64,000 bases of DNA from Parabacteroides sp. AM08-6 (lineage in GTDB: Bacteria; Bacteroidota; Bacteroidia; Bacteroidales; Tannerellaceae). Location of the stretch: positions 4,661 to 68,660 of the forward strand of contig NZ_QRMP01000016.1 of the NCBI RefSeq assembly GCF_003473295.1. The letters run 5' to 3'. Under the pieces are notes generated by a model that did no database searches, had not been told where the DNA came from, and saw nothing but the letters and a program-made list of their open reading frames with translations. Position numbers and translations under genes: made by a program. Numbering within the stretch: the stretch's first letter is position 1; each line of letters opens with the position of its first letter. Shown here piece after piece: positions 1-18,747 of the stretch.

Positions 1-317
1 AAGAAAACCGTTTTCATCCGTTTCAATTTCAGGGTATAATTCAGCATCCACATAAGAACAACGATATTCTATTCCTGAATATGGTAAAATTCCATTTAGA
101 GAATCTGCTCCATTATAAGAAACAGGAGTACCAGCCCTTTCTCCAACTACAAGCCCAACCTTTTGTCTACGAAAAAGTGCCACAAAATTAATCGCTGCTG
201 AATAAGTATATCTACTTTGAATAACAAATACCTTACCAGCAAATCCTTTTGTATTTTTAGAGTAAGCCTGCCCGTTCGTTCAAGTATTTTTGCTTCTTTA
301 TCTGGCCACATAGACAT
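1..317 (-). pseudogene. C-terminal remnant of an S41-family protease (runs off the left edge)
   Basis: The reverse strand reads as the C-terminal third of the same protein as the intact S41 protease at 7770-9140. Shared stretches are NTKGFxGKVFV, the Ser-containing SAA block, LVVGExAG and ETDENGF. The copy has no proper start. Homology begins near 317, with a Trp aligned to residue 342 of the intact gene's longest frame. Around 255-262 the frame breaks: LTLK lies in one frame and NTKGF in the next, consistent with a loss of about 16 bases. A stop codon lies upstream in the second frame. This is therefore dead DNA, the tail of a gene whose head is at 1858-1992. Confidence 0.8.
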
Positions 318-328
318 TTTTCCTTATA

Positions 329-1141
329 TCACTTCTTTTCTGACAATAATTTTACCTCAGTTTCTGTACGAGAAGGAAATTCTTTACCAAAAGCTTCCAC
401 TTCTTCAGCTACAACTTTCTTTAATTCTTCCTGGGGAACAATCAGTTGGTAATCTGCCACGCCGATGGGTTTACCCATATCTTCTAATGCTAGTTCCACT
501 TCTACACGGTCTTTCTCGGCACATAGAATGATACCGATAGAACGATTCTCATCTTCTCTTCGTTCCAAACGGTCAAGCAACGACAGGTAGTAGTTCATTT
601 TACCTGCATATTCCGGCTTAAACTCACCAATCTTTAAGTCGACAGCAACAAGACAATGTAACCCACGATGAAAAAAAAGCATATCCACCTTACTCCGCTT
701 TCCATTGTATTCAAGCATATACTGATTTCCTATATAGGTGAAACCCTTGCCTAGTTCCAGAAGAAATTGCTTTACCTTCTCTACTAGTCGAGCTTCAAGT
801 TCTGTTTCCAATATAGGATCTTTAACACCAAGGAATCCAAGATTATAACCGTTTCTGAACACTTCATTGGCAAACATTGCTTGTGCAGCAGGCAGAGTCT
901 GCTCAAAATTATTACCAGAAGGCTCGTCCTTCCTCATGTGCATTTTCAGAGAGATGGCACTGGATAGAAGTTCACGATTCCAACCTTTTGATGTGGTTTC
1001 CTGTGCATAGTATAAAATAGCATTGTCATCTTCACCGAACTTGCGCATCAAGGTCAGTATATGTCCCCATGGTATAACTGCGACAGCCTGTCGCAGAATT
1101 GCGTCATACTCTGATTCTTGGATTTGCGTAATATCTGTCAT
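329..1141 (-). CDS. DUF1016/YhcG-family PDDEXK nuclease, short N-terminus
   Basis: A 270-residue protein of the DUF1016 (YhcG) family, predicted to carry a PD-(D/E)XK nuclease fold. The core is clear: D153 in KVDMLFFHR, then D168-x-K170 in VAVDLKIG, followed by the hallmark FKPEYAGKMNYYL. The family motif around PWGHI (residues 24-28) is present, but the protein starts only about 20 residues before it. Usual members are some 60 or more residues longer at this end, so the N-terminal domain looks incomplete. The XRE gene ends 4 bp upstream, so the two are co-transcribed. The pair sits between two halves of a broken S41 gene. The target, and whether it acts in defence, are unknown. Confidence 0.85.
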   Translation of the reverse strand: MTDITQIQESEYDAILRQAVAVIPWGHILTLMRKFGEDDNAILYYAQETTSKGWNRELLSSAISLKMHMRKDEPSGNNFEQTLPAAQAMFANEVFRNGYNLGFLGVKDPILETELEARLVEKVKQFLLELGKGFTYIGNQYMLEYNGKRSKVDMLFFHRGLHCLVAVDLKIGEFKPEYAGKMNYYLSLLDRLERREDENRSIGIILCAEKDRVEVELALEDMGKPIGVADYQLIVPQEELKKVVAEEVEAFGKEFPSRTETEVKLLSEKK

Positions 1142-1145
1142 GGCC

Positions 1146-1352
1146 TCAATCTTTCCCTGTTATAAGTTCTCGCTTGTCAATATCAAGCAACGTTGCAATC
1201 CTGTCTAATGTGTATAGGTCAGGCTGGGACACATTAGTACACCACTTGCTTACAGTAGCAGGATTCTTCCCTAATTCTTCGGCAAGCCATTTAGCCGTTC
1301 GCTTCTTTTCAACAAGCACAACTTTAATGCGATTTAAATCTTCCATTTGCAA
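1146..1352 (-). CDS. XRE-family helix-turn-helix regulator
   Basis: A 68-residue protein that is essentially one Cro/C1-type HTH domain. The helices span roughly residues 16-60 and include AKWLAEELGKNPATVSKW. There is no sensing or dimerisation domain. It directly precedes the DUF1016 nuclease gene, so it probably represses or tunes that pair. A Bacteroides-type -7 box lies about 20 bp upstream, which predicts a very short leader. Function is inferred from the domain and position only. Confidence 0.85.
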   Translation of the reverse strand: MQMEDLNRIKVVLVEKKRTAKWLAEELGKNPATVSKWCTNVSQPDLYTLDRIATLLDIDKRELITGKD

Positions 1353-1857
1353 ATCTATTTAATTTGAACGCAAAGATATATAAAACAATTGGCAATAAAT
1401 GGATTTTTACTTAGGAAGTTCATTTATGCATTCGTTTTTCATAATTATTGAATCTCTATAGAAATGATTGTCCAAGTTAGGTGTGATTAACTAATTCATG
1501 TTACACCTTAAGAATGAGTTCGCTGATTCGCTTTACAGTTTCTGCTTGGTAGACTAAACCTGTTTACGAACAGTCCACTTGGAACTATTCAGCTCTACAG
1601 TGATTGTTGCAGAATGATTAAAAGAGACATTGAGTTATCGGAATTTTTGATTACCCTTGTCGTCAGCTAATCATTTCACTTCTATTTGAAGCAAGACGAG
1701 GAAAATAGTACGTTACAAATCCATTACCTATGCCTATTTAATGGTTTTGTAAATCTTTGAAAGATAGGGATGTATATTCAGGCAAAAGAATTGTTGCCAA
1801 CTCATTACCTCTATTTCTCAAATAATTCGCTAAAAGTCTATTTCTCAAACGTTTGTA
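1353..1857. other. Gene-free stretch with broken reading frames
   Basis: About 500 bases without an intact gene. The minus strand around 1500-1640 has short open pieces in two frames, one ending in ETVKRISELILKV, separated by stops. This looks like decayed coding DNA, but I cannot assign a family. A 12-base direct repeat, CTATTTCTCAAA, occurs at about 1811 and 1838, next to the point where S41 homology ends. No tRNA, integrase or transposase remnant was recognised. Confidence 0.4.
1371..1378 (-). promoter_or_regulatory. Bacteroidota -7 element for the XRE-DUF1016 pair
   Basis: The minus strand reads TATCTTTG, an exact match to the TAnnTTTG -7 consensus of Bacteroides primary-sigma promoters. 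No good -33 TTTG is seen at the usual spacing. The predicted transcript would start about 10 bases before the XRE start codon. Confidence 0.5.
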
Positions 1858-1992
1858 TCAAACCGTCAAAAATCTAAAATAATAATCAATATCAGACCTC
1901 ATCTCTTCCGGAGACAATTTCTGTGCAGAAGAAAGATGGACGCTAAATATAAATATCAAAACAATCAAATATTTCATATATGCAAAATTCAT
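1858..1992 (-). pseudogene. N-terminal remnant of an S41-family protease
   Basis: The minus strand encodes a signal peptide and the start of an S41 protease: MKYLIVLIFIFSVHLSSAQ, then KLSPEEMRSDIDYYFRFL, then a stop. The intact protease at 9140 begins with a close match (MKYVVSFLF...YAQ, then DLSPNEMKIDVNYYFEML). Homology stops at that point. The remnant starts 3 or 18 bases after the glycosyltransferase stop at 1996, so it was the last gene of the peptide operon. Its tail lies at 1-317. The middle, about 280 codons, has been lost and replaced by the XRE-DUF1016 segment. Confidence 0.8.
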
Positions 1993-1995
1993 CGT

Positions 1996-2865
1996 TTATA
2001 GAAATCCCATTATCTGATTTTTAAGAACACTCCGAATTTCCGAATCGACAACATCATCAAATTTCCGGGCAAACAAACATTCAGACTTCAGGAGTAACGA
2101 TAAATCATCTATTCTCAATAGTCTCGGATATTCCGGACCTTTTACCCAATCAATATACCTGAGATTACTATTTACCAAAGATGGCTGAAATATAGAATTT
2201 TGTAAAATGGTCTGAAATATCATTTCATCAGGACATAATGTATTTTTATAAAAATCATACAGCTCATTTCCAAAAGCACAATTATTTGCCAAGAAACTAA
2301 CACATTCATACGTTAAAGACCACCATTGAGAACCACCATAGAATTTTATTCCTAAAGGACAATTCCGTTTCATATTCTTTTGTTTCTGATATTCAACAAG
2401 AAAATAAGCGCGTTCTATACCTGTTTCATCAATCAACCATTTATACGTTAGGCGATCTAATCCACCATTACCACTCCAATTCTTATACGGCAAAGGGAAA
2501 AATTCTATAAAATTCAAACCGTTATTTCGCACAAAATAGTTATCAATTTCAACATTTGATTTCAAAGGAAAATCTTGACCACTCAAAAGATGTACATAAT
2601 CAACCTGAATCCCTGTTTCAATCAATGCCTGTATCAAGCACATAGTTGCTTTCACTTGGCTAAAACCAGCCCAATTCACAGATATCCTTCTTTCTAAGAA
2701 AAAGATTCGTTCCGGCATTTTATAATTCTCTCTTAAGAAAAGCGAAAGTTCCGACTTTTCGTCTATATGTACAAAAAAATAATTATCCTCATCTTGTAAT
2801 ACATTAATCAAATCACAAAGCTGAGATGGATTTTTATGCGCTTGTATCAGATATGCAAATTTCAT
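1996..2865 (-). CDS. GT14-type glycosyltransferase (core-2/I-branching family)
   Basis: A 289-residue protein of glycosyltransferase family 14, the core-2/I-branching beta-1,6-N-acetylglucosaminyltransferase family. Typical blocks are FAYLIQAHKNP at the N-terminus, YFFVHIDEKS, the VNWAGFSQVKA stretch, YVHLLSGQDFPLKS, GSQWWSLT and the acidic CPDEMIFQTIL motif near the C-terminal third, which holds the likely catalytic acid. No signal peptide or membrane segment is seen, so it should act in the cytoplasm. It is the last intact gene of the peptide operon, 14 bp after the HlyD gene. In animals this family branches mucin O-glycans. Here it may extend a glycan on the exported peptide, which is inference. 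Confidence 0.85.
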   Translation of the reverse strand: MKFAYLIQAHKNPSQLCDLINVLQDEDNYFFVHIDEKSELSLFLRENYKMPERIFFLERRISVNWAGFSQVKATMCLIQALIETGIQVDYVHLLSGQDFPLKSNVEIDNYFVRNNGLNFIEFFPLPYKNWSGNGGLDRLTYKWLIDETGIERAYFLVEYQKQKNMKRNCPLGIKFYGGSQWWSLTYECVSFLANNCAFGNELYDFYKNTLCPDEMIFQTILQNSIFQPSLVNSNLRYIDWVKGPEYPRLLRIDDLSLLLKSECLFARKFDDVVDSEIRSVLKNQIMGFL

Positions 2866-2879
2866 ATTTATCAGAACAT

Positions 2880-4199
2880 TTATTTGTTTGCAGAAACTGT
2901 ACCACTATTCTTAATCAAGGACTTCATCGGGAAAAATAATCTTTGCAATATATTGTAATCATCTGTGATAATTTCTGCTTCACCCGTCATTTCTGGGGAA
3001 AAGGGTAATTCTATTCCATAGCTTGTTCGCACCGCGTTCGGTAATTCAACCTCTACTTTATAATTTTCCTTTCCGGGTATATCAGATATGGAACGTATCA
3101 CACCTCTCAATATGCCAAATTCCATATAAGGATAATTGTCCAATTTTATATTCACAACCTGTCCTTCTTCTACTTTTCCTGATTTAAGCAATGGCAACTC
3201 CAATTTTCCTATAAAAAAACCTTTTTTAAATGGTATCACATTTGTAAATATATCACCTTGCTCTATATATTGATTTTTACTCCAAAAAGCGGGGAATGAC
3301 AGTTGTCCTTCATAAGGAGAACGGAACACATACCTTTTATCCCACTGTTCCGTCTGATCCTGTAATGCATCCAACTTCTGACGGATATTATTCAGATGTT
3401 CCTGTTTTTGTTTCTGATAATCCAATTCTAGTTCCAATAACTGTTGTTTTAATTGTGATAATTGGGTTCTTGTATTTGCCAAAGAAGCCATATTACCTTC
3501 CCATGTAATTTTCTTTTGTAGGAGAGCACTTTTCGTTTGCTCTAATTCTGCTGAGAAAACAACTTGTTTCTCAAATAATAACGAATCTCTTTTATAGGCT
3601 ATTACAGACAATTCTATTTCTTCTTCTAACAATTTATTTTGTCTTTCAAAATGAGATACATTATCTGATGTATACAGGATTTGTTCTTCCAAAACCTTTC
3701 TATTCCGGGTATGGTAATCTAAGTCTTGAAATTTTTTATAATCTTTCAAAGCAGACTTCAAGTCCAGAAAATAAGGCATAATCTCTCCTAACTGTTGTTC
3801 TTTGACGAAAACGCTGTCTTTCAAACTTATTATTTCCGGTTCATTATTTTGATTCAACCAAGCTTTTAAACTCAACATATCATTCAAAGAAGATGGACTT
3901 TCAATCACCCCCAATACTTGATTAACACCAACCTCCGCTTTATCACTGACTTTTATATCAACTATCCGCCCCGATACTTTTGCGACTAAAGAAACAGAAG
4001 GGAACTCGGTTGAAATCGTAATTTTTGCATTGACAACATCCGGATAACTAAAAAAAGAACTTCCTATTAATAAAATCAGAAAAAAAAGAAACAAAACAAA
4101 GATACCCATTCTCATCAACCAGTTAGGCGTCCTTCCAAGAATGGCTTCTATTTCATCACTACGGATATTCAATTTTACGGGTTTCTTTTCCTTCTCCAT
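2880..4199 (-). CDS. HlyD-family periplasmic adaptor of the peptide exporter
   Basis: A 439-residue membrane-fusion protein. After a cytoplasmic tail come one membrane helix (residues about 30-50), a lipoyl-like half (about 70-105), a long Gln/Leu-rich coiled-coil hairpin (about 150-290), and a C-terminal beta-barrel with the second lipoyl half. Its stop and the ABC gene leave one base between them, so translation is likely coupled. Such adaptors connect C39-type ABC exporters to an outer-membrane tunnel. No TolC-like gene is present in this operon, so the outer-membrane partner must be encoded elsewhere. Confidence 0.9.
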   Translation of the reverse strand: MEKEKKPVKLNIRSDEIEAILGRTPNWLMRMGIFVLFLFFLILLIGSSFFSYPDVVNAKITISTEFPSVSLVAKVSGRIVDIKVSDKAEVGVNQVLGVIESPSSLNDMLSLKAWLNQNNEPEIISLKDSVFVKEQQLGEIMPYFLDLKSALKDYKKFQDLDYHTRNRKVLEEQILYTSDNVSHFERQNKLLEEEIELSVIAYKRDSLLFEKQVVFSAELEQTKSALLQKKITWEGNMASLANTRTQLSQLKQQLLELELDYQKQKQEHLNNIRQKLDALQDQTEQWDKRYVFRSPYEGQLSFPAFWSKNQYIEQGDIFTNVIPFKKGFFIGKLELPLLKSGKVEEGQVVNIKLDNYPYMEFGILRGVIRSISDIPGKENYKVEVELPNAVRTSYGIELPFSPEMTGEAEIITDDYNILQRLFFPMKSLIKNSGTVSANK

Positions 4200-4200
4200 G

Positions 4201-6423
4201 TCAATTCACCATTTCCAATTGATTCTTAACTAATTCATAATAATATCCCCGCTCTGCTACCAACTGTTCATGAGTTCCTTCCGACACAATTTTTCCATGA
4301 TCCAAAACCACAATTTTATCAGCATTCCTTACCGTACTAAGACGATGTGCCACTACAATCACAGTTCGTCCCTGATAAAAATCGTGCAAATTATCATTGA
4401 TGGCACGTTCATTGTTCGCATCCAAAGCATTGGTAGCCTCATCCAAAAAAATGTATTGCGGATTCTTGTATACAGCCCGTGCTATCAAGATACGTTGCTT
4501 TTGTCCCTGGCTCAAACCACTTCCCTCCTGGCCTATCTTTGTATTATATCCGGAAGGCAATTCCTCTATAAACTCATGAATATTGGCAATCTGGGCAGCA
4601 ACATAAAGTCGTTCTATATCTATTTGTTCTTCTCCCACTGCTATATTTTCAGCAATCGTATCAGAAAAGATAAAACCATCTTGCATCACAACACCACAAA
4701 TAGAACGCCAGTAATTAGTATCGATGTTTTTCAGATTCGTTACGCCTATATTAATACATCCGGACAGAGGTTCATAATATCCCAGCAGCATTTTCAGTAT
4801 GGTAGTTTTCCCACTTCCACTTTCACCGACAATAGCCGTCACTTTATTATGAGGAAATACTAAATTCAAATGATCCAACACCGGCAAAGAAGAAGCACCC
4901 AAGTAACTGAATGTTAAATCCTTCAAAACCAAATCCCGATTTCCCGGCGACAATGCCTTTTGCCGGATTTCATTCATTTGGTCCTCATCCTCCCGAAAAT
5001 GTACTTCACCCAATCTTTCCAAGCTGATTTTTGCATCCTGATAAGAATGTACAAAACCGATAAAATTCTCTACCGGTCCTTTTAGTTGTCCTAATATATA
5101 GGATAAGGACATCATCATACCTAATGTAATCTCACCTTTTATCACCAAATAAGCAGAGAATACCGACATTCCTATGTTCAATGCATTCGAAATAAAGAAA
5201 GCGCCGATACTCTGGATTTGACTGACAGTAAGACCTTTTATACTCACATCGAATAATTCAGCCTGTATATTTTCCCACTTCCAACGAACTTTTCGTTCGC
5301 ATCCGTTCAATTTTATCTCTTCCGCCCCGGAAATCAACTGGATTATACTGGATTGATTACGTGCCGCTTTCTCAAACCGTTTAAAATCCAATTCACGACG
5401 TATTCCCAAAAAGAGCATGACCCATCCCACATAAATAGCATGTCCAATCACAAAACAAACCAACATCCAATAATTATAATATCCCAATACGATTGCAAAC
5501 ACAAAGAAATTTAAAAAGGAAAACAGTGTACCTAAAGAGGTTCCGGTAAAAAATTCCTGAATACGGGAATGATCGCCTATACGCTGCATAATGTCCCCTG
5601 TTTTTTTCGATTCGAAAAAATTGATTGGCAGTTTCAGCATCTTTGTTATGAAGTCTGAAATCAAGGCTACATTAATACGGGTCGTAACATGAAGCAAAAT
5701 CCAACTTTGAACAAATCCGACCGATAACTGGCTAAGAGAAAGGATAAACTGTGCAACCAAAACAAGTATGATAAAATTCAAATTGTTGCCCAAAACACCA
5801 AAATCCACCATCGACTGGGTTATAAAAGGAAACAACAACTGAATAAGCATTCCCATCAACATCCCTAACATCACCTGAAAAAACAGCTTCTTATGCGGAC
5901 GTATATAAGAAAAGAAATGAATCAAGCTATACTTTTTCGATTCATTCAAATCATCATCCGGATGATAGAAAGCTAATGTCGGAGACAACATCAAAACCAT
6001 TCCTTTTTGTATTTCATCTTCAACCGTACTGAGCCATCCATCCAGAAATTCGGAAACACTGTAAGTCAACAATCCAAAAGCAGGATCTGCTACATATATT
6101 TTTCCCATCCAGTGCTCCCCCTTTTTCCTGACCTTTATCTTATAAACGACAGCAAAATGGTCCTGCCTCCAATGAATAATACAAGGTAAAATCACATCTT
6201 TCTGTAATCGGTCGAAACTCGTACGTATTCCCATTGTTCGAAAACCAACTTTCTCGGCAGCATCGCTAATACCCAACATTGTCACGCCATTTCTGTTTGC
6301 AAAACACAAATCGCGTAATCTATATAACTCCATTCTTCTTCCGTAATGGGCCGAAATCATTCGTAAACAACTCGGACCACAATCGGAAGAATCATGTTGA
6401 CGAAAAAAGGGGAATTTTCTCAT
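4201..6423 (-). CDS. C39-peptidase ABC exporter (leader-cleaving, PCAT type)
   Basis: A 740-residue bacteriocin-type transporter that cuts double-glycine leaders while exporting the peptide. The N-terminal C39 peptidase keeps its machinery: Q9, catalytic C15 in DCGPSC, H89 in RQDHFAVV and D113 in VADPAFG. A six-helix membrane domain spans about 165-460. The nucleotide-binding domain has Walker A GESGSGKTT near 531, signature LSQGQKQR, Walker B FLDEATNALD and H-loop VAHRLSTV, so it should be active. It follows the radical SAM gene by 14 bp. The obvious substrate is the precursor at 9269-9610, which ends its leader in Gly-Gly. Confidence 0.95.
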   Translation of the reverse strand: MRKFPFFRQHDSSDCGPSCLRMISAHYGRRMELYRLRDLCFANRNGVTMLGISDAAEKVGFRTMGIRTSFDRLQKDVILPCIIHWRQDHFAVVYKIKVRKKGEHWMGKIYVADPAFGLLTYSVSEFLDGWLSTVEDEIQKGMVLMLSPTLAFYHPDDDLNESKKYSLIHFFSYIRPHKKLFFQVMLGMLMGMLIQLLFPFITQSMVDFGVLGNNLNFIILVLVAQFILSLSQLSVGFVQSWILLHVTTRINVALISDFITKMLKLPINFFESKKTGDIMQRIGDHSRIQEFFTGTSLGTLFSFLNFFVFAIVLGYYNYWMLVCFVIGHAIYVGWVMLFLGIRRELDFKRFEKAARNQSSIIQLISGAEEIKLNGCERKVRWKWENIQAELFDVSIKGLTVSQIQSIGAFFISNALNIGMSVFSAYLVIKGEITLGMMMSLSYILGQLKGPVENFIGFVHSYQDAKISLERLGEVHFREDEDQMNEIRQKALSPGNRDLVLKDLTFSYLGASSLPVLDHLNLVFPHNKVTAIVGESGSGKTTILKMLLGYYEPLSGCINIGVTNLKNIDTNYWRSICGVVMQDGFIFSDTIAENIAVGEEQIDIERLYVAAQIANIHEFIEELPSGYNTKIGQEGSGLSQGQKQRILIARAVYKNPQYIFLDEATNALDANNERAINDNLHDFYQGRTVIVVAHRLSTVRNADKIVVLDHGKIVSEGTHEQLVAERGYYYELVKNQLEMVN

Positions 6424-6437
6424 TACAATATATCGTG

Positions 6438-7763
6438 TTAATTTTCTTCTAAAAACTTCATCTTATTTTTATAATACTCTACAATTACTGTTTCCGGTGG
6501 AATTTCTGAATATTTTAAACTACAAATAGAAGACAGGTATTCCTTGGGGGTTTCCATGATTTTTTGTGAACATGGTCCCATACATAGAGGCAAATATTTA
6601 CATTTAATACACATCTCATTCTCGAATGTAGCTTTTGCGTAACGTTTTGCAACCTTTTGTTCATGCCAACGTATAGTTCCATCATCGTTTAATACTCCGA
6701 CCTCATATTCTTCTGTAAAAGTTCTTGCAGTACAAAAGTACAGTTTGCCATCATAATTTATTTCCAAATGGTTAAAACAATCTACATAACATTTGAAATA
6801 TGCACCTATCTGAAGAATATTCGCAGGTTCATTCACTTTAAAACCAATATCCCTACAATAATTATACAAATCCAAACGCCTTTCATTTTTGAGAGATCCC
6901 TCTTTTACTGTTTGCCACACTCTTTGAAAATTCGGTAATATTTTTGCTCTATATTCAACTGGTATAATAGAAAAAATCTCTTTCATTTGAACATCTTTCA
7001 ATGTTTTATCATCATAATTAATACGTAACGTTATATGAACATCCTCTATATACTTACACAAATCATTAACATTTTTCATTATCCTATCATAACTCGGTAA
7101 TCCATTCTCATTCCGTATTTTATCATGCCTCTTCTTTGCCCCATCCAATGTAATTTGAAAATGCTTCATATCAATTTCTTTCATCTTGGTTATCATCTCT
7201 TTATCAATCCTATACGCGTTTGTCGTAACAGAGACATTAAATGGCACATTATGGGAAGCACAGATTTTCTTTGCAAAAAGAGAAAGCGGATAGACCACTT
7301 CATTAAAATATAACAATGGTTCTCCACCAAACCAAGATATATGAACAGAAGAAACATGTTCTTTTATAACTTTATGTTCTATATATTTTTGAATTTTATC
7401 AACGGTATCCTGATTCATAACACCTTTAGGATGTTCTTCGTAGCAGTACCAACAATTAAAATTACATTCTAAAGTTGGATTAATCACTAAATTTAGTGCT
7501 TTATTTCCTATCGTAGCAAGCTTATTTCTATACCTAACGATATCTAATTCATCAACATCTTCTTCTATCACAAATCCCCAATCTATAAACTTTTTAAACA
7601 CTGAATTATAATTAATCTCAAAAGAAATTAAATCATAAAGTAATCGTTGTATATTTTCATGTTCATTTTCAGACAAAGAGAACACATGATTCGTAATACC
7701 ATTAAAATAGACATAACGATTATTTTCCTTCACAAAATAATTATAAGAACTCAACTTATACAT
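6438..7763 (-). CDS. Radical SAM/SPASM peptide maturase
   Basis: A 441-residue enzyme. Residues 1-85 form a possible peptide-recognition region with no clear family match. The radical SAM cluster motif is C100-x3-C104-x2-C107. The C-terminal SPASM domain is complete: C329-x9-G-x4-C344, then C385-x2-C388-x5-C394-x3-C398, then C414, enough for auxiliary Fe-S clusters. Such enzymes make thioether, C-C or similar crosslinks in ribosomal peptides. It lies 6 bp after the S41 gene and ahead of the exporter, and resembles the maturases of the predicted GG-Bacteroidales peptide systems. The natural substrate is very probably the cysteine-rich precursor three genes up; the bond formed cannot be told from sequence. 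Confidence 0.92.
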   Translation of the reverse strand: MYKLSSYNYFVKENNRYVYFNGITNHVFSLSENEHENIQRLLYDLISFEINYNSVFKKFIDWGFVIEEDVDELDIVRYRNKLATIGNKALNLVINPTLECNFNCWYCYEEHPKGVMNQDTVDKIQKYIEHKVIKEHVSSVHISWFGGEPLLYFNEVVYPLSLFAKKICASHNVPFNVSVTTNAYRIDKEMITKMKEIDMKHFQITLDGAKKRHDKIRNENGLPSYDRIMKNVNDLCKYIEDVHITLRINYDDKTLKDVQMKEIFSIIPVEYRAKILPNFQRVWQTVKEGSLKNERRLDLYNYCRDIGFKVNEPANILQIGAYFKCYVDCFNHLEINYDGKLYFCTARTFTEEYEVGVLNDDGTIRWHEQKVAKRYAKATFENEMCIKCKYLPLCMGPCSQKIMETPKEYLSSICSLKYSEIPPETVIVEYYKNKMKFLEEN

Positions 7764-7769
7764 AATTAA

Positions 7770-9140
7770 TTATTTTAAATTATTACTCATATCTATTATC
7801 TTCAAATAATCTTCTATGCCCAATTCACGATTATAAACATCATATGGTATATCTGGAATAATAAAACCATTTTCATCTGTTTCCATTTTAGGATAATTTA
7901 TCTCTTCAACTAAAGAATATCGAATTTTTATTTTTGAATATGGCAAAATATCCTCCCGTGGATTTCCACTGAAACAAATAGGTTCACCGGCCTGCTCTCC
8001 AACTACAAGACCCATATTTTGCCTACGAAAATATTCAACCAAACTTATCGCTGCAGAAAAAGTCTCTCGTCCTTGAAGAACAAAGACTTTACCATCAAAA
8101 CCCTTCGTATTACCAGGCATAGAGATTTTCAATGTTCCAGTTCCTGTTTTTAAGAAATTTTTTTTCGCTCTTTCTAGTTTCCAAATAAAATATCTAATTT
8201 TTAACCTCTTCATAAATGTTGTTCCTTGACTTGCAAGATATTTTCTATTTTCTTTTACATCTTGCTCCATAAGCTCTTTTACGCATTTTTTATTAATGCG
8301 CTTTACTATTTTAATAGTAACTTTTTTCGCATTAAGATGTTTGAAAATATATTTTTGATATTCATCACTACCTCCTCCATTTTTAGTCACATCAATAAAC
8401 AAGTATTTTATGTGGTCGTTTTTCATTTTTCTAAATGCTTCTATTAATACGTGTTCAAAAAATTCTTCATCTTTTCCTAAATAACATGTATTATAATGAA
8501 GTACAGCAATTGAATATTCTTCAAAAAATTCAAAATTAAATTTAGATTCGTTATTATACACCTGTTTAACAAGCTTCAAGGTATCTTTCTTCATTTCCCC
8601 TGTTTTCAAATTTTTAAAAGAGGCTATATAGGGAGGTTTTATTCCATAAAATTTAGCAGCAAACAAAAGAAAATCATCATTAATGCTTTTTTCTTTTAAC
8701 AACGAACTATATTCCCAACTATACATATTAGAAAGTTCTTGTACTATTTCTTTCGTGCTTACATCATTAATAAATACAATCAAATTATCATTCAACAATA
8801 AAGAATCTTCTCGTACTTGAAAATATGGAAATTTGGTCTGTACATTCCATTTAGTAATCTTATTTATATTAACATTAGTATGGCCATCTGTATAAGCATT
8901 AACTCTTAACATCAAACGATTAAAATCTCTACAACTCATTGTATCTTTTATATTTAATAGAATACTTTGTCGCAATGAATCAAACTGAATAGCCGTATAT
9001 TTCTTATAAAGATTTGGATGATATTTGTTCAACATCTCAAAATAATAATTAACATCAATCTTCATTTCATTAGGAGATAAATCCTGAGCATAAGAGACAC
9101 AAATACTCATTAGAAATAAAAAAGAGACAACATATTTCAT
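7770..9140 (-). CDS. S41-family protease of the peptide operon
   Basis: A secreted S41 (C-terminal-processing/tricorn-type) protease of about 456 residues. The frame opens at 9206, but I take the Met at 9140, because a signal peptide ending in SYAQ follows it and the decayed paralogue begins at the same place. The nucleophile region reads GRETFSAAISLVEYF, with Ser at about residue 362 from this start. No PDZ domain is obvious, and the classical GK lysine is not evident after VVGEQAGE. It sits between precursor and maturase genes. It could trim the exported peptide, degrade it, or give immunity; none of these is shown. Confidence 0.85.
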   Translation of the reverse strand: MKYVVSFLFLMSICVSYAQDLSPNEMKIDVNYYFEMLNKYHPNLYKKYTAIQFDSLRQSILLNIKDTMSCRDFNRLMLRVNAYTDGHTNVNINKITKWNVQTKFPYFQVREDSLLLNDNLIVFINDVSTKEIVQELSNMYSWEYSSLLKEKSINDDFLLFAAKFYGIKPPYIASFKNLKTGEMKKDTLKLVKQVYNNESKFNFEFFEEYSIAVLHYNTCYLGKDEEFFEHVLIEAFRKMKNDHIKYLFIDVTKNGGGSDEYQKYIFKHLNAKKVTIKIVKRINKKCVKELMEQDVKENRKYLASQGTTFMKRLKIRYFIWKLERAKKNFLKTGTGTLKISMPGNTKGFDGKVFVLQGRETFSAAISLVEYFRRQNMGLVVGEQAGEPICFSGNPREDILPYSKIKIRYSLVEEINYPKMETDENGFIIPDIPYDVYNRELGIEDYLKIIDMSNNLK

Positions 9141-9268
9141 TACATTAATATTTATTTGTATCACAAAAATGTATCTGTCATTAATGTTATAACGAATTTC
9201 ATTCAAAACTTATTCATAAAGAAAAACATTTCTACTTATAATGACAGATACTCTAATATCAAACCCTA

Positions 9269-9610
9269 TCAGGGCTTAGGGATTGAAGGTTGAGCAAGAG
9301 TTACTTCTGGTACAGCAAGTGTTGGCACGGGAACTGTAGGCAATTCTACCGAAGCTAAAATACAAATAGCTGCTTTTGGATTAGTACAAGGTTTATTATC
9401 CTGAGGACAATTACATTTTGAAAAATTAATACAAATACCATTCTTAGCACCTGGACAATAACCATTGTCATCCAAAAGATTGCCTCCCACAACTTTCCCC
9501 ATCCTCATCGTATTCAGGGATTCTTCACTAAACAGCTCTACTGCTTCATCAAATACAATGTTCAGTTCAAGAGCCATTCTTTCTTTGTTTTTTAATTCTT
9601 GGTCGTTCAT
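9269..9610 (-). CDS. Double-glycine-leader RiPP precursor with Cys block and Pro/Thr tail
   Basis: A 113-residue precursor peptide. Residues 1-43 form an acidic, helical leader ending MGKVVGG, the cleavage site expected for C39 exporters. The core has two parts. Residues 44-83 carry six cysteines (52, 60, 66, 68, 75, 83) with Asn, Gly and Lys. Residues 88-113 are Pro-rich (91, 94, 96, 101, 108, 111, 113) with T92, T97, T104 and S109; T92 and S109 each have Pro at -1 and +2. A strong AAGGAGG ribosome site, rare in Bacteroidota, lies 5 bases before the ATG. Its neighbours are two glycosyltransferases upstream and the protease, radical SAM and exporter genes downstream. A GG-Bacteroidales-type natural-product precursor is the best fit; the modified form is unknown. 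Confidence 0.88.
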   Translation of the reverse strand: MNDQELKNKERMALELNIVFDEAVELFSEESLNTMRMGKVVGGNLLDDNGYCPGAKNGICINFSKCNCPQDNKPCTNPKAAICILASVELPTVPVPTLAVPEVTLAQPSIPKP

Positions 9611-9615
9611 ACAAA

Positions 9616-9622
9616 CCTCCTT
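9616..9622 (-). promoter_or_regulatory. Strong Shine-Dalgarno site of the precursor gene
   Basis: The minus strand reads AAGGAGG five bases before the precursor ATG, inside the 14-base gap after the glycosyltransferase stop. Bacteroidota genes usually lack such sites, and the other genes in this operon show none as good. It probably raises precursor output over that of the enzymes. Confidence 0.7.
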
Positions 9623-9624
9623 CT

Positions 9625-10575
9625 TTAAAAATTAGACATATATTTATGGATTTCTCCATTTGCTAACAGAAATTTATCTATTGAATGGTTGAATATTGTT
9701 TGATAATAAGAGGATTGTTCTTTAATAAACGACCTGTCTTCAACCATTTTACTTATAGCTTGCCTATATAATACCGGAATTTGTTTTTCCCAATATTTAA
9801 ACAACATATACTTCTCCGGCTGTGGTAAGAATAATTCTGCTACATAGAACTTATTGTAAAGAATATCTATATCTGCCGTTTTATAAGGAAAGTTAGTTCG
9901 ATATATATGTCCGGCTCCGACGGACTTTAATAATTTGCATTTTCCACCCTCCATCCATACTTTCATTGAAATGAGCTGTTCATCCAATCCATAAGAACGC
10001 AATCCTTTTAATCCTCCCAAATATTTCCAGTAAGATTTATTGCAAGCATAAGCTGCTCCTAATACGCAAACAATATCTACAACATTTTCCTCCGGATTCG
10101 GATCTTTTGTATTCCACTTAGCCCGCATATCACCATTCTCTGAAAGGTCTATATAGGCACCATATGTTGTAACCTTGTCTGTTTCAATCACATCGTATCC
10201 ATCTGTGTCTTTTTTAAAGGAAATTGATTGACAACAAAGTAACGCCCGTCCATCTTTATACAATTCTTGAACTATTAACTCGACCCAATCATTCTGAAAA
10301 AAACGCATATGTCCATCCAGAAGTAAAAAGAACTCCGTAGGACAATTCTCTACTGCTTCATCTCTTGAAGCAGCAACCCCTTTTCTTTCCGAATGACAAA
10401 TATAAGCTGCATCAAACTTATCCGCCACAGCCTTATAATCATATCCATCTTCCGACGCATCATTTATCAACATGATATTGATTTTATCACTTGCCGTATC
10501 CCGAAGATTTTTTACTGTATTATATACTTCTTCTCCTTCGTTCAAAAATGGTATAATCACTGTCAACTCTTTCAT
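9625..10575 (-). CDS. Glycosyltransferase resembling polypeptide GalNAc-transferases (GT2/GT27-like)
   Basis: A 316-residue GT-A enzyme. The N-terminal half has TVIIPFLNEGEE, LINDASEDG and the metal motif D87-G88-H89 in LLLDGHMRF. A D-x-H motif marks polypeptide GalNAc-transferases (GT27) rather than ordinary GT2 enzymes, which use DxD. Residues 196-211 (GLDEQLISMKVWMEGG) and 220-226 (GAGHIYR) match the layout of the GT27 Gal/GalNAc motif, WGGExxELSFRVWxCGG then VGHVFR. There is no lectin domain, membrane anchor or signal, so it would work in the cytoplasm. It stops 14 bp before the precursor gene. It is therefore the best candidate to put the first sugar on Thr/Ser of the Pro-rich tail (inference). 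Confidence 0.85.
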   Translation of the reverse strand: MKELTVIIPFLNEGEEVYNTVKNLRDTASDKINIMLINDASEDGYDYKAVADKFDAAYICHSERKGVAASRDEAVENCPTEFFLLLDGHMRFFQNDWVELIVQELYKDGRALLCCQSISFKKDTDGYDVIETDKVTTYGAYIDLSENGDMRAKWNTKDPNPEENVVDIVCVLGAAYACNKSYWKYLGGLKGLRSYGLDEQLISMKVWMEGGKCKLLKSVGAGHIYRTNFPYKTADIDILYNKFYVAELFLPQPEKYMLFKYWEKQIPVLYRQAISKMVEDRSFIKEQSSYYQTIFNHSIDKFLLANGEIHKYMSNF

Positions 10576-10581
10576 AGCATA

Positions 10582-11409
10582 TCAAATTTTCATTAAATAG
10601 GACACCAATTGACAATAATCCTTTATAGTCAAAACATTACGAATATAAAGGTCATATAACAAATCACAAACTGGCACAACATTATTATACTTTACATTAT
10701 CACGCTTCAACAAATATCGGATAATCTCTTGACGGATAACAAATGAATTTTCAATCATTTGCATATTATTCACCGTGCTAATCTGCTGTTCATGAATACG
10801 ATAATAATTCAAAACTCGTGGTAGATTCGACAATTTACCGCCAGCTAACACGATATCAACCCAAAGTTTATAATCTTCTGCATAAATATATTCCTGTTTA
10901 TAACGAATTTGATAAAAATCTAAAAAGTCTTTTCTCATCATCCCCACTGCAAAGCAATTATAATCTATAAAACCATTTTCTATTTCATCGGAATCCAATA
11001 ATTGAGGCATATATTTTCCACTTCCATATCCAAACCGCTCAAACCCGGCACCACAAGCCGCTATATCTTCATTATTTTCTAAATAATTATACTGGACCAA
11101 TAATCTATCCTTATGCATCTTATCATCGGCGTCCATTCTGATAACATATTTACCGACAGCCTGCTCCAAGCCGATATTCAAAGTTTGAATAAAATCATGA
11201 TGATTGTCAATCACACGTATACGTTCATCCGAAAAACCTTGAGCGATTTGCAGACTTTTATCAGTGGAGCCGTCATTAATCAGAATCAATTCAAAATCTC
11301 GAAAAGACTGTTCCAAAACACTTTGTATCGATTCCGAAAGATAGGACTCAACATTATAAAAAGGTATATACACGGATATAGAAAGTTTCTTTTCCATAAG
11401 TAAAGACAA
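10582..11409 (-). CDS. GT2-family glycosyltransferase, first gene of the peptide operon
   Basis: A 275-residue family-2 glycosyltransferase with the usual GT-A blocks: SVYIPFYNVESYL, LILINDGSTDKS, the nucleotide-sugar motif D93-A94-D95 in IRMDADDKMHKD, and the acceptor-side acidic block YAEDYKLWVDI. A Met at residue 5 is an equally good start. It is soluble. It is followed after 6 bp by the GalNAc-transferase-like gene, so it most likely adds a further sugar to the same acceptor, although a surface-polysaccharide role cannot be excluded from sequence. I found no clean TAnnTTTG promoter in the region upstream. Confidence 0.88.
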   Translation of the reverse strand: MSLLMEKKLSISVYIPFYNVESYLSESIQSVLEQSFRDFELILINDGSTDKSLQIAQGFSDERIRVIDNHHDFIQTLNIGLEQAVGKYVIRMDADDKMHKDRLLVQYNYLENNEDIAACGAGFERFGYGSGKYMPQLLDSDEIENGFIDYNCFAVGMMRKDFLDFYQIRYKQEYIYAEDYKLWVDIVLAGGKLSNLPRVLNYYRIHEQQISTVNNMQMIENSFVIRQEIIRYLLKRDNVKYNNVVPVCDLLYDLYIRNVLTIKDYCQLVSYLMKI

Positions 11410-11731
11410 TAGATTAGGTTATCATTCTTCACAAAATCAACAAATCAATCCTTATTTTTCATCGCCTGTAAATGTAACGCTTATATTGTATACAACAAAA
11501 AAAGAATCCTTGATTTTCATATATAAAACATTATTTAACACCATCATTCTCGAATCCCCTATTTTTGTAATCTGTATATTGCAAAAACCCAATCGTTACG
11601 ACTCCATCACAATGTACACCCCTTGATATAAAACCTCACAAATCAAATTTTCCATTCATTTCTTTATCAAAGGCAATCGGCAAAAACAGCAAATAATCAA
11701 GGTGAAATGAACAATTTGCCTCTTTCTGTTG
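11410..11731. other. AT-rich intergenic region between divergent operons
   Basis: About 320 bases separate the peptide operon (minus) from the HU-lnb operon (plus). The left part is very AT-rich, like the peptide locus. No exact TAnnTTTG element was found facing the minus-strand operon, so its promoter is unrecognised or regulated by a different factor. No RNA gene was recognised. Confidence 0.4.
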
Positions 11732-11739
11732 TATCTTTG
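11732..11739 (+). promoter_or_regulatory. Bacteroidota -7 element before the HU-family operon
   Basis: TATCTTTG matches the TAnnTTTG -7 consensus. The nearest TTTG upstream (11715) is only 13 bases away, short for a -33 element. If used, the transcript carries a leader of about 190 bases that contains the whole 22-bp repeat array. Confidence 0.45.
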
Positions 11740-11755
11740 CAGCCGTTCGATTTGC

Positions 11756-11842
11756 CTTTCGATAATTGTCGTAAGGCCTTACGACGGTTATCGAAAGGTC
11801 TTACCACAATTGTCAAAAGGCCTTACGACAATTATCGAAAGA
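11756..11842. repeat. 22-bp repeat array, one inverted and three direct copies
   Basis: Three head-to-tail 22-base units (11777-11798, 11799-11820, 11821-11842) follow the pattern YCTTACSACRRTTRTCRAAAGR. A fourth copy at 11756-11776 is in the opposite orientation, so units one and two also form a near-perfect hairpin. The 22-base period equals about two helical turns. The array lies between a promoter-like box and the HU-family gene, in the likely 5' leader. It could be protein binding sites, an RNA structure, or an interspersed repeat. Confidence 0.8.
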
Positions 11843-11937
11843 CGATTAGCCGGGCAACAAAATCCGAATACATCCCGGCTAAGGCGAATAAGCTTGCATC
11901 TATTTTAAAATTATTCAGGTAACAAACATTAGTATAT

Positions 11938-12528
11938 ATGGCTATAAAATTCAGCGTACACCAGACTCCGCAACCGAAAGACCGCAAAGAGGAAGCACTC
12001 TGCCACGCACGCGCAATTCCTAACGGAACAAAGAGAATGGATGACATTTGCGCACTCATCTGCGAACGGGGGTCTATTTCGTCGGCCGACGTAAAGGCGG
12101 TGTTGGACTCGCTGGTATGGGTAATCAGGCTGTCACTGGAATACGGGGACCATGTGGAACTGGAAGAGTTAGGGCATTTCTCGCCTTCGCTCCGCAGCCG
12201 GAAGTTGCCGAACGGGAAATTTACCGTGTCGGTGGACGGCGTGAACTTCCGCTGCTCGGAAAAACTGAAAAATCAGCTCAAATATGTAAAACTTGAAAAA
12301 GGAAAAGAGACGGCCGGTTATTTGCCGAAAGAACGGAAAAACCGGATGGTGGATTACCTGAAACGTAACGAGACGATTACGACTCCGATTTATGCCGCAT
12401 TGAATGCTTGTTCCCATTACAGGGCCAAGGCCGACCTCGACCAATATATCAAAGAAAACGTGATTGTACGTGTCGGGAGCAGCACGCATGTGAGTTATTT
12501 ATTGACTGAAAATGTAAACAGAGAATAA
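11938..12528 (+). CDS. HU-family DNA-binding protein (HU-HIG type)
   Basis: A 196-residue protein. Residues about 1-130 have the HU/IHF-like fold of the Bacteroidota HU-HIG family, with SADVKAVLDSLVWVIRLSLEYGDHVELEELGHFSPSLRS as the helix-plus-arm region and FRCSEKLKNQLKYVKLEK. Residues about 130-196 form a winged-helix-like tail (RMVDYLKRNETITTPIYAALN...ADLDQYIKENVIVRVG). It should bind DNA, either as a nucleoid protein or as a local regulator. It precedes the lnb-like gene by 3 bp and so heads that operon. A 22-bp repeat array lies just upstream and might be its own target, which is untested inference. Confidence 0.85.
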   Translation: MAIKFSVHQTPQPKDRKEEALCHARAIPNGTKRMDDICALICERGSISSADVKAVLDSLVWVIRLSLEYGDHVELEELGHFSPSLRSRKLPNGKFTVSVDGVNFRCSEKLKNQLKYVKLEKGKETAGYLPKERKNRMVDYLKRNETITTPIYAALNACSHYRAKADLDQYIKENVIVRVGSSTHVSYLLTENVNRE

Positions 12529-13740: not shown

Positions 13741-15326
13741 GAAAAATATTATCATCACTCATCGCAATTCTGGTTGTCACCAACTTAGAGGCACAGCAAC
13801 ACACCCCTAAATTAGTGGTTTGCATCACTGTGGACCAGTTGAGGGGCGATTATATCGAATACTTTTACAACACGTTCGGCGAACGTGGTTTCAAACGGTT
13901 GATGAATGAAGGATTGGTGTACAGCAACATCCGGTTCGAATTTTCCGACATCGACCAGGCAAGCGCTTTCGCCACCCTGTTTACCGGGAGCAATCCCAAC
14001 TATAACGGTATTTCAGGAAAGAAAACGTATGATTTCGAGAAAGATCAGGAAGTTTCCATCCTGAACGACCCGGAATATCTGGGTAATTACACGAAGGAAC
14101 ATTATTCCCCGCGAAAGCTGTTCAGCTCGACTATCGGGGACGAACTGAAAATCGCCTCCAACGGCAGAAGTGACGTGTATTCCATCGCTCCCGACCCTGA
14201 AAGTGCCATTCTTTCGGCAGGCCATGCGGCAAATGGGGCTTTCTGGATGGACGATTACAATGGGAAGTGGGCTACCACGACTTTCTACAAAGGCATCCCT
14301 TGGTATGTGGACCGCTATAACAATGGTCCCGAATCGCTTTCGACACGTCTGGAGCAGATGGTGTGGACTCCTTCGCTTCCACTCGACAAATTCAACGCGT
14401 TTCCTTATGTGCTGGATGACGTGTCCTATAAATATACGTTTAAGGAAAACACAAAAGAGTGTTTCTTCAATCTGAAAACATCCCCTTTTATCAATAAGGA
14501 AATCAACCGGTTGGCACTCCAGTTCCTTGAATACGGGGCTTTCGGCACACGAAGTTGTCCGGATATGCTTTCCATCACATACTACGCCGGCAACTACCGG
14601 GGGAACATGAGTAAGGAATATACGCGTGAAATACAGGATACGTACTATCAGTTGGACAAAGACCTTGAACAGTTGTTAGATAAAATAGACAAAAAGGTGG
14701 GTCTTGCCAATACATTGATTGTACTCACCGGTTCGGGGTATTACAAGAGCGAAGAACAATATCCCGACGGATTGTTCCTGACAAACGGTGAATTTTATCC
14801 GAAACGTTGTCTCGCCTTGCTGAATATGTATCTGATGGCCATCTACGGACAGCAGACGAATTGGGTTACAGGTTTCTACAACAACCAGATATTCCTGAAC
14901 CGGAAAGCGATAGAAGAGGCTAAGCTGGAACTGGCAGCCGTACAGGACAAAGCGGCTGAATTCCTTCGCGAATTCAGTGGCGTGCAGCATGTTGTAACGG
15001 AGAATGTTCTGCGTTCCGGGACTTGGAACGAACAGACTTCCGACTATTTGCAAGGAACACATCTTTCTACACGGGGTGATTTGATTATCGAATTGCAACC
15101 GGGTTGGCTGATTAACAACGAGAACTCGAAAGAAAAAGTCAAATTAATACGAAACAACGCAGTTATTACCCCACTGGTATTTATGGGCAACGGCATCAAA
15201 CCGGAACGTATTTACCGTGAAGTGAAAGCCACAGAGGTAGCCCCCACGGTAACCCATGTGCTGAGAATCAGGCCGCCGAATGCGTCTACCAGCCTGCCGT
15301 TAAGGGAACTGACCGTCAACAAATGA
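13725..15326 (+). CDS. Alkaline-phosphatase-fold protein lacking most metal ligands
   Basis: A 533-residue secreted protein of the alkaline phosphatase/nucleotide pyrophosphatase superfamily (PafA-like). The fold is visible: VVCITVDQLRGDYIEYF with the first metal Asp (residue 37), the RLMNEG turn, and FTGSNPNYNGISG where the family has YTGxxPxxHGI. The catalytic positions are gone. The nucleophile Thr aligns with Gln78, the DxxGH block reads YYAGNYRG, and the TDHG block reads LTGSGYY. Only one ligand remains, so hydrolysis by the standard two-metal mechanism is unlikely. It overlaps the Lnb-like gene by 16 bases. A binding or assembly role near the inner membrane is a guess. Confidence 0.85.
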   Translation: MEHRVRKILSSLIAILVVTNLEAQQHTPKLVVCITVDQLRGDYIEYFYNTFGERGFKRLMNEGLVYSNIRFEFSDIDQASAFATLFTGSNPNYNGISGKKTYDFEKDQEVSILNDPEYLGNYTKEHYSPRKLFSSTIGDELKIASNGRSDVYSIAPDPESAILSAGHAANGAFWMDDYNGKWATTTFYKGIPWYVDRYNNGPESLSTRLEQMVWTPSLPLDKFNAFPYVLDDVSYKYTFKENTKECFFNLKTSPFINKEINRLALQFLEYGAFGTRSCPDMLSITYYAGNYRGNMSKEYTREIQDTYYQLDKDLEQLLDKIDKKVGLANTLIVLTGSGYYKSEEQYPDGLFLTNGEFYPKRCLALLNMYLMAIYGQQTNWVTGFYNNQIFLNRKAIEEAKLELAAVQDKAAEFLREFSGVQHVVTENVLRSGTWNEQTSDYLQGTHLSTRGDLIIELQPGWLINNENSKEKVKLIRNNAVITPLVFMGNGIKPERIYREVKATEVAPTVTHVLRIRPPNASTSLPLRELTVNK

Positions 15327-15411
15327 CAATTGACAGTCAGTCATGCGTAGGTTATATATAAAGCCACGCATCCATACTCTTTCTATCTAATAAAATTAAA
15401 ACAAATATATC

Positions 15412-18747
<3,336 letters not shown>

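Follow-up and report, generated by a model that had tools for sequence, protein, structure and literature searches.

Glycocins, bacteriocins that are glycosylated on Ser, Thr or Cys, are built from a small double-glycine peptide, a dedicated GT-A glycosyltransferase and a C39 exporter, and are not known to include a radical S-adenosylmethionine (SAM) enzyme or a GT14 glycosyltransferase. In Bacteroidales, the GG-Bacteroidales radical SAM systems (TIGR04148/TIGR04149/TIGR04150/TIGR04157) combine a double-glycine precursor with a radical SAM/SPASM maturase, a C39 exporter and an HlyD protein, and some of them carry glycosyltransferases; PMC4573289 describes TIGR04149 clusters in Bacteroides. Table 1 of PMC10352776 gives, as predictions, 41 Bacteroidales areas with radical SAM, LanC and peptide S-glycosyltransferase (GlyS) genes and seven with radical SAM and GlyS, and glycosyltransferases occur in two of the nine clusters chosen in that study. 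Here we describe an operon in a 64,000-nucleotide stretch of Parabacteroides sp. AM08-6 (contig NZ_QRMP01000016.1, positions 4,661 to 68,660; hereafter the window), which runs down the minus strand between positions 11397 and 1996 and encodes, in this order, a GT2 glycosyltransferase, an enzyme resembling polypeptide N-acetylgalactosaminyltransferases (GalNAc-Ts), a precursor peptide, an S41 peptidase, a radical SAM/SPASM protein, a C39 exporter, an HlyD adaptor and a GT14 glycosyltransferase. Glycosylation of the peptide by the GalNAc-T-like enzyme is the best reading of this operon, one that we hold with reasonable confidence on the strength of gene content and structure prediction, and its likely product is an exported peptide with both crosslinks and O-linked sugars.

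Glycosyltransferases near such Bacteroidales peptides are already known as predictions, and the first-pass annotation of the window, which said as much of the GG-Bacteroidales systems, agrees with what is in print (PMC10352776). The parts of that paper drawn on here name no relation to GalNAc-Ts or GT14 and no Thr/Pro-tailed precursor family. Similarly, in the titles and abstract openings of the matches listed from the open PMC literature, we found no GalNAc-T-like or GT14 enzyme joined to a radical SAM peptide and no Thr/Ser/Pro-tailed precursor family. Unlike the GG-Bacteroidales systems, the operon has no pseudo-radical SAM gene, no protein matching TIGR04157 and a different leader motif, and its precursor (P0006) gave no match to Pfam or NCBIfam at 0.01, TIGR04149 included. 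It differs from glycocins in its GalNAc-T-type enzyme and the separate tail of its precursor.

The window does hold one minus-strand operon with the gene set first proposed for it, judging from eight open frames (Table 1), their Pfam domains and a counterpart in Parabacteroides faecis (L005). The gaps between the genes are, in order, 6, 14, 128, 6, 14, 1 and 14 bases, and the likeliest starts of the leading GT2 gene and the first S41 gene are ATG 11397 (rather than TTG 11409) and ATG 9140. In P. faecis, GT14, GT2, GalNAc-T-like, precursor, S41, radical SAM, C39 exporter, HlyD and second S41 genes stand in one run, with identities to the window of 65% (GT14), 60% (GT2), 76% (GalNAc-T-like), 45% (precursor), 34% (S41), 60% (radical SAM), 84% (exporter), 63% (HlyD) and 47% (second S41), together with an extra GT2 (41%). 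Because the same run recurs at 34-84% identity, the operon is not a chance assembly, and since the GT14 gene lies upstream of the precursor in P. faecis and last of the eight in the window, the gene set has been kept while the layout moves. The best match to the window's secA DNA in the Bacteroidales group (393 genomes, 105 of them unscored) has 85% identity. The operon is real, conserved and rare. It runs on past 1996 into a broken second S41 gene, which begins at 1992, 3 bases after GT14, lacks approximately residues 66-368 (P. faecis numbering) and picks up again at 267-1 with a stretch matching P. faecis residues 369-457. This breakage and the rarity of the family could mean that the operon is decaying and yields no product, but the reading frames of all eight upstream genes, the first S41 among them, are uninterrupted, the gaps between them are short and their motifs are intact, and we consider decay very improbable.

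To place the GalNAc-T-like enzyme (P0007) among genomes, we searched whole-genome sets that overlap in part. Relatives were found in 3 of 393 genomes (E 1e-30), 1 of 12 (already counted) and 4 of 101 (one already counted), and in none of five genomes with a relative of the radical SAM protein P0004 (E 1e-10) or of four genomes of a further set. Loci from all six distinct genomes were examined (L014-L019). Where the first-pass annotation had named loci with the glycosyltransferases and no precursor gene as evidence against it, the check, confined to the GalNAc-T-like enzyme, found a double-glycine precursor within 3 kb of that gene in every one of the six, at 34 bases (L014), 29 bases (L018), about 1.4 kb (L015), 1.9 kb (L017) and 2.9 kb (L016 and L019). 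Precursors were scored against TIGR04149 (cut-off 25 bits) in two scans, one of them of the genomes; those of L019 (46) and L015 (33) exceed the cut-off in both, that of L017 in the genome scan (33.1) and not on its shorter frame (22.1), and that of L016 in neither (21.2 and 21.7). There are one to three TIGR04149 matches per genome and nine across the six (E 0.05); the one near the GalNAc-T-like gene is the sole match in G028, G423 and G138 and the best of three in G465. In G342 and G432 these matches lie elsewhere, and the corresponding loci, L018 and L014, hold the window's own precursor family, whose only match in the 393 genomes at 0.001 is that in G342.

The crosslinking genes beside the enzyme vary from locus to locus. 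They comprise a radical SAM protein unassigned in NCBIfam in the window and P. faecis, a TIGR04148 and TIGR04150 pair in L019 (with a TIGR04157 glycosyltransferase and two GT14-GT2 fusions), a radical SAM protein in L016, LanB in L015 and, in L014, a radical SAM homologue (10812-12089) that has lost two of its three CX3CX2C cysteines and kept the C-terminal ones. L017 has no P0004-like match in 12 kb, and G342 has no P0004 copy at 1e-30, its locus beginning at a contig end. Conversely, the loci of radical SAM relatives (L001-L004, L006, L025, L027 and L028) have no P0001-, P0007- or P0008-like gene nearby, in stretches of DNA that go down to 3.2 kb for some of them; L007, its radical SAM match being 23% over 156 residues, was left out of this comparison, which does not include two further radical SAM matches in G465 either. 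It is with the peptide, not with the radical SAM protein, that the GalNAc-T-like enzyme co-occurs, and this is the strongest argument for its action on the peptide. The glycosyltransferases might instead make an unrelated surface glycan, with the operon only putting two products under one promoter, and GT2 and GT14 enzymes are indeed common in bacterial surface-glycan loci. However, the proximity to a double-glycine precursor in all six genomes despite differing crosslinking enzymes, an operon whose eight genes include none for a flippase, a polymerase or an initiating sugar-phosphate transferase, and a predicted P0007 fold that is that of peptide-acting enzymes leave little credit for such a glycan.

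Several of these loci have further features. In L014 the pseudo-radical SAM gene adjoins an intact GalNAc-T-like gene, and in L015 (9529-17971) the GalNAc-T-like gene sits in a LanB lanthipeptide cluster with a split dehydratase (PF04738, PF14028), a TIGR04149-type leader and a TIGR04157-like glycosyltransferase that scores 366 bits, below the cut-off of 400. L016 (9489-11177) encodes a GalNAc-T-like domain and a LanC-like domain (PF05147) in one chain, as do proteins P0109, P0116 and P0125. L019 is a GG-Bacteroidales system that also has a GalNAc-T-like enzyme, and its GT14-GT2 fusions (6874-8658 and 14348-16117) flank the classic radical SAM cluster.

P0007 is predicted to fold as a polypeptide GalNAc-T. 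Its model (predicted local distance difference test, pLDDT, 95.8) has the GalNAc-T catalytic-domain fold, and the best 50 Foldseek matches and the 29 best VIA-align entries among solved structures are all GalNAc-Ts. D87, H89 and H223 are invariant in 60 of 60 aligned sequences and align to GalNAc-T10 and T2; we take this D-x-H and distal His to be the metal-site residues. Sequence, predicted fold and these residues bear out the earlier assignment of one glycosyltransferase as GalNAc-T-like. Structural alignments with animal and Toxoplasma polypeptide GalNAc-Ts (CAZy GT27) give 16-21% identity, and among the solved structures listed, enzymes of this fold come from animals and Toxoplasma only. 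In a plasmid search P0006 had no match and P0007 had one (24% over 78%, in a Cytobacillus record), and viral contigs yielded no relative of P0007 and none of the precursor alignment.

The precursor belongs to a family for which a profile search returned 92 proteins (E value at most 10), of which 14 scored worse than 0.001; with P0131, 93 were counted. Leaders in the family carry FSEETLxSM ahead of GG, the cores are rich in Cys and a tail is often present, and the GG at 42-43 is kept in all aligned precursors (alignments of five and eight). Across the 93 precursors, the combined share of Ser, Thr and Pro is 11.5% in leaders and 20.2% in cores and reaches 52% past the last Cys; at least 12 residues follow the last Cys in 45 of them, and 32 of these 45 tails are at least half Ser, Thr or Pro. 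Some tails are nearly pure Thr-Pro or poly-Ser, and TTPTPTPSSTTPTPAG is one tail type, beside those of the window and P. faecis. PT..PT..P is kept in all eight relatives chosen as closest, several of which are near-identical to each other, with S replacing the first T in one; P91, T/S92, P96, T97 and P101 are held, while the core is variable save for three Cys. The motif D(S/T)(A/I/L/V/M/T), which is the general O-glycosylation motif of Bacteroidetes, is absent from the core and tail of the window precursor and present in 12 of the 93 family cores.

Three leader-profile matches were set aside as chance, the only two in 395 genomes of the phylum, which lie inside frames of 396 and 737 amino acids (aa), and one of two in the 101-genome family, a 38-aa frame with a stop. 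Precursors P0142, P0143 and P0156 have a longest listed contig of equal length (21538), as do P0010 and P0141 (16172) and P0158, P0180 and P0194 (3002), which suggests several precursors per cluster.

A number of observations weigh against O-glycosylation of the tail by this set of enzymes. The enzyme was found in 0 of 38 genomes of the closest genus among those scored (E 1e-20), genome context covers only 4 of the 93 family precursors, and 61 of the 93 have no tail of the length and composition given above. Moreover, the three-enzyme set is not constant, with GT14 in three of eight loci (window, L005 and L019) and a P0008-like GT2 in five (window, L005, L019, L016 and L018; P0008 matches falling on the GalNAc-T-like gene itself were excluded). 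WGGEN is the donor-site stretch of GalNAc-Ts, and at the aligned place P0007 reads YGLDE. P0007 also lacks the membrane anchor of the animal and Toxoplasma enzymes, and it has no lectin domain, PF00535 being the sole Pfam domain in its 316 aa; GT27 enzymes have a C-terminal ricin-type lectin domain (PMC4202792). Owing to YGLDE and the missing lectin domain, its sugar and acceptor may differ from those of GalNAc-Ts, so that of the GalNAc-T logic first proposed, the fold and metal site stand and GalNAc as the sugar is conjectural. The window tail is itself weakly mucin-like, with seven Ser/Thr/Pro in its best 15 residues, and six control precursors, from radical SAM relatives with no glycosyltransferase found nearby, reach up to eight. 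We dropped Ser/Thr/Pro density as an argument for the window tail, as the count fails to separate it from controls; the argument therefore rests on the wider family, where many members do have the Pro/Thr/Ser tails first proposed, and on the conserved positions.

The L015, L016 and L019 precursors have no Pro/Thr tail, and that of L014 has no tail after its last Cys and a Ser/Thr patch ahead of it. That these precursors nonetheless adjoin the enzyme would suit a sugar placed on core Ser/Thr or Cys in glycocin fashion, with the tail acting as a spacer, a secretion handle or a follower removed by the S41 enzyme. The six Cys of the window core and the recurrence of S41-like genes in radical SAM loci both with and without glycosyltransferases point the same way. 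We regard core glycosylation as unlikely, given that the close relatives, near-identical as several are, hold the tail positions while the core varies, and that the C-termini of several family members consist almost wholly of Thr, Ser and Pro.

P0001 clearly belongs to GT14 (PF02485, Core-2/I-Branching, 104.8 bits against a cut-off of 23.4). Its nearest solved protein in the PDB is xylosyltransferase 1 (5.5e-15), which acts on Ser of core proteins, followed by the core-2 enzyme (6.3e-13), and from this order P0001 might start or branch a chain. The first-pass annotation was right about the family, and its narrower assignment to core-2-type branchers is not supported, xylosyltransferase 1 being the nearest solved protein. 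The PDE stretch of P0001 resembles the SPDE motif listed for C2GnT in PMC4202792; unlike xylosyltransferase 1 and the core-2 N-acetylglucosaminyltransferase, P0001 has no membrane anchor by hydropathy. The third glycosyltransferase, P0008, is a GT2 enzyme as proposed (PF00535), with no 19-residue stretch of mean hydropathy above 1.24.

The radical SAM/SPASM assignment is likewise supported. C100, C104 and C107 (CX3CX2C) of P0004 are invariant in six of six aligned copies, as are C325, C344, C385, C388, C394, C398 and C414, and the SPASM domain scores 42.9 bits on TIGR04085 (cut-off 27) and just under the cut-off on PF13186 (19.3 against 21.5). With these cysteines P0004 has the features of a SPASM maturase of ribosomally synthesized and post-translationally modified peptides (RiPPs). 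Among the best 25 of 50 NCBIfam models it exceeds no family cut-off save that of the generic SPASM model TIGR04085; CefB (163 of 600 bits) and TIGR04463 (155 of 525) come first and TIGR04148 is absent. Its model is of middling quality (pLDDT 72.3); TigE, CteB and SuiB, all RiPP maturases, match its fold best, and the N-terminus consists of strands 2-4, 8-13, 16-21 and 27-31, then three helices. Strands followed by three helices are the topology of the RiPP recognition element (RRE), which this predicted domain resembles, as judged on topology alone. The invariant cysteines and the maturase fold matches make a Cys crosslink in the core likely. The C39 exporter, HlyD and S41 assignments also hold (PF03412/PF00664/PF00005, PF13437 and PF03572), the exporter having a C39 domain fused to an ABC exporter (PF03412 100.9 bits, cut-off 22) and a double-glycine leader to act on; the S41 and GT14 proteins gave no NCBIfam match at 0.01.

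Collectively, these data fit a scheme whose order of steps we infer. In the cytoplasm, the radical SAM enzyme would bind the leader through its RRE-like N-terminal domain and link core Cys residues, the GalNAc-T-like enzyme would add a first sugar to a Thr or Ser of the peptide, with the tail as the likeliest site, and the GT2 and GT14 enzymes would lengthen or branch it. The C39 exporter would then cleave after GG and export the peptide together with HlyD and an outer-membrane channel whose gene lies elsewhere, and a periplasmic S41 enzyme might trim the peptide or protect the cell. The first-pass interpretation is in this way partly upheld, for its enzyme families, radical SAM protein and precursor family; the start-extend-branch order, the core-2 role of GT14 and GalNAc as the sugar are conjectural.

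Table 1. Features of the operon and its downstream end in the window.
Feature	Position	Strand	Evidence
GT2 glycosyltransferase P0008 (271 aa from ATG), predicted cytosolic	10582..11397	-	PF00535 1.7e-30; P. faecis copy 60% identical
GalNAc-T-like (GT27-like) glycosyltransferase P0007, 316 aa	9625..10575	-	PF00535
RiPP precursor P0006, 113 aa	9269..9610	-	leader FDEAVELFSEESLNTM..GG, six-Cys core, 30-residue Pro/Thr tail; homologues
13-base perfect inverted repeat, predicted RNA hairpin, precursor/S41 gap	9171..9251	-	fold z -2.63
S41 peptidase (456 aa from ATG), signal-like N-terminus	7770..9140	-	PF03572 2.1e-12; N-terminal hydrophobic stretch
Radical SAM/SPASM protein P0004, predicted peptide maturase, 441 aa	6438..7763	-	PF04055; TIGR04085 above cut-off
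C39-peptidase ABC exporter (PCAT), 740 aa	4201..6423	-	PF03412 + PF00664 + PF00005; P. faecis copy 84%
HlyD-type periplasmic adaptor, 439 aa	2880..4199	-	PF13437 7.1e-07; TIGR01843 2.2e-22, under its cut-off
GT14 glycosyltransferase P0001, 289 aa, predicted cytosolic	1996..2865	-	PF02485 7e-30; P. faecis copy 65%
Second S41 gene, first 44 codons, broken	1858..1992	-	matches residues 31-65 of second P. faecis S41

The 128-base gap 3' of the precursor folds well, with 4 of 200 shuffles as good, and its hairpin may permit production of excess precursor. Inverted repeats, though imperfect ones, also lie in the corresponding gap of P. faecis, which folds less well (z -1.69). Rfam gave 0 matches in positions 1-12500 of the window at the gathering threshold, and a promoter scan gave 55 sites where shuffles had 48.7 (sd 7.1). 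The approximately 1.6 kb between the pieces of the second S41 gene encode a YhcG-type PDDEXK protein (329-1141; PF06250 7.4e-55) and contain a short frame (1146-1352) that looks helix-turn-helix-like by eye.

More broadly, and as a tentative proposal that we think somewhat doubtful, Bacteroidota may possess a cytosolic, lipid-free counterpart of mucin-type O-glycosylation, in which a GalNAc-T homologue would initiate sugar chains on secreted, crosslinked peptides at their Thr/Ser/Pro tails and GT2 and GT14 enzymes would lengthen and branch them, the enzyme clan serving radical SAM and lanthipeptide systems alike as a mobile tailoring module, with exported mini-mucins as the outcome. A crosslinked, sugar-bearing peptide would itself bring mucin-style chemistry to bacterial peptides and be a new class of doubly modified RiPP. 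A bacterial GalNAc-T relative tied to secreted peptides would offer a tool for placing defined sugars on peptides in the cytosol and would bear on the origin of GalNAc-transferases. For host-associated bacteria, the glycosylated peptide would be a possible mimic of mucin glycans.

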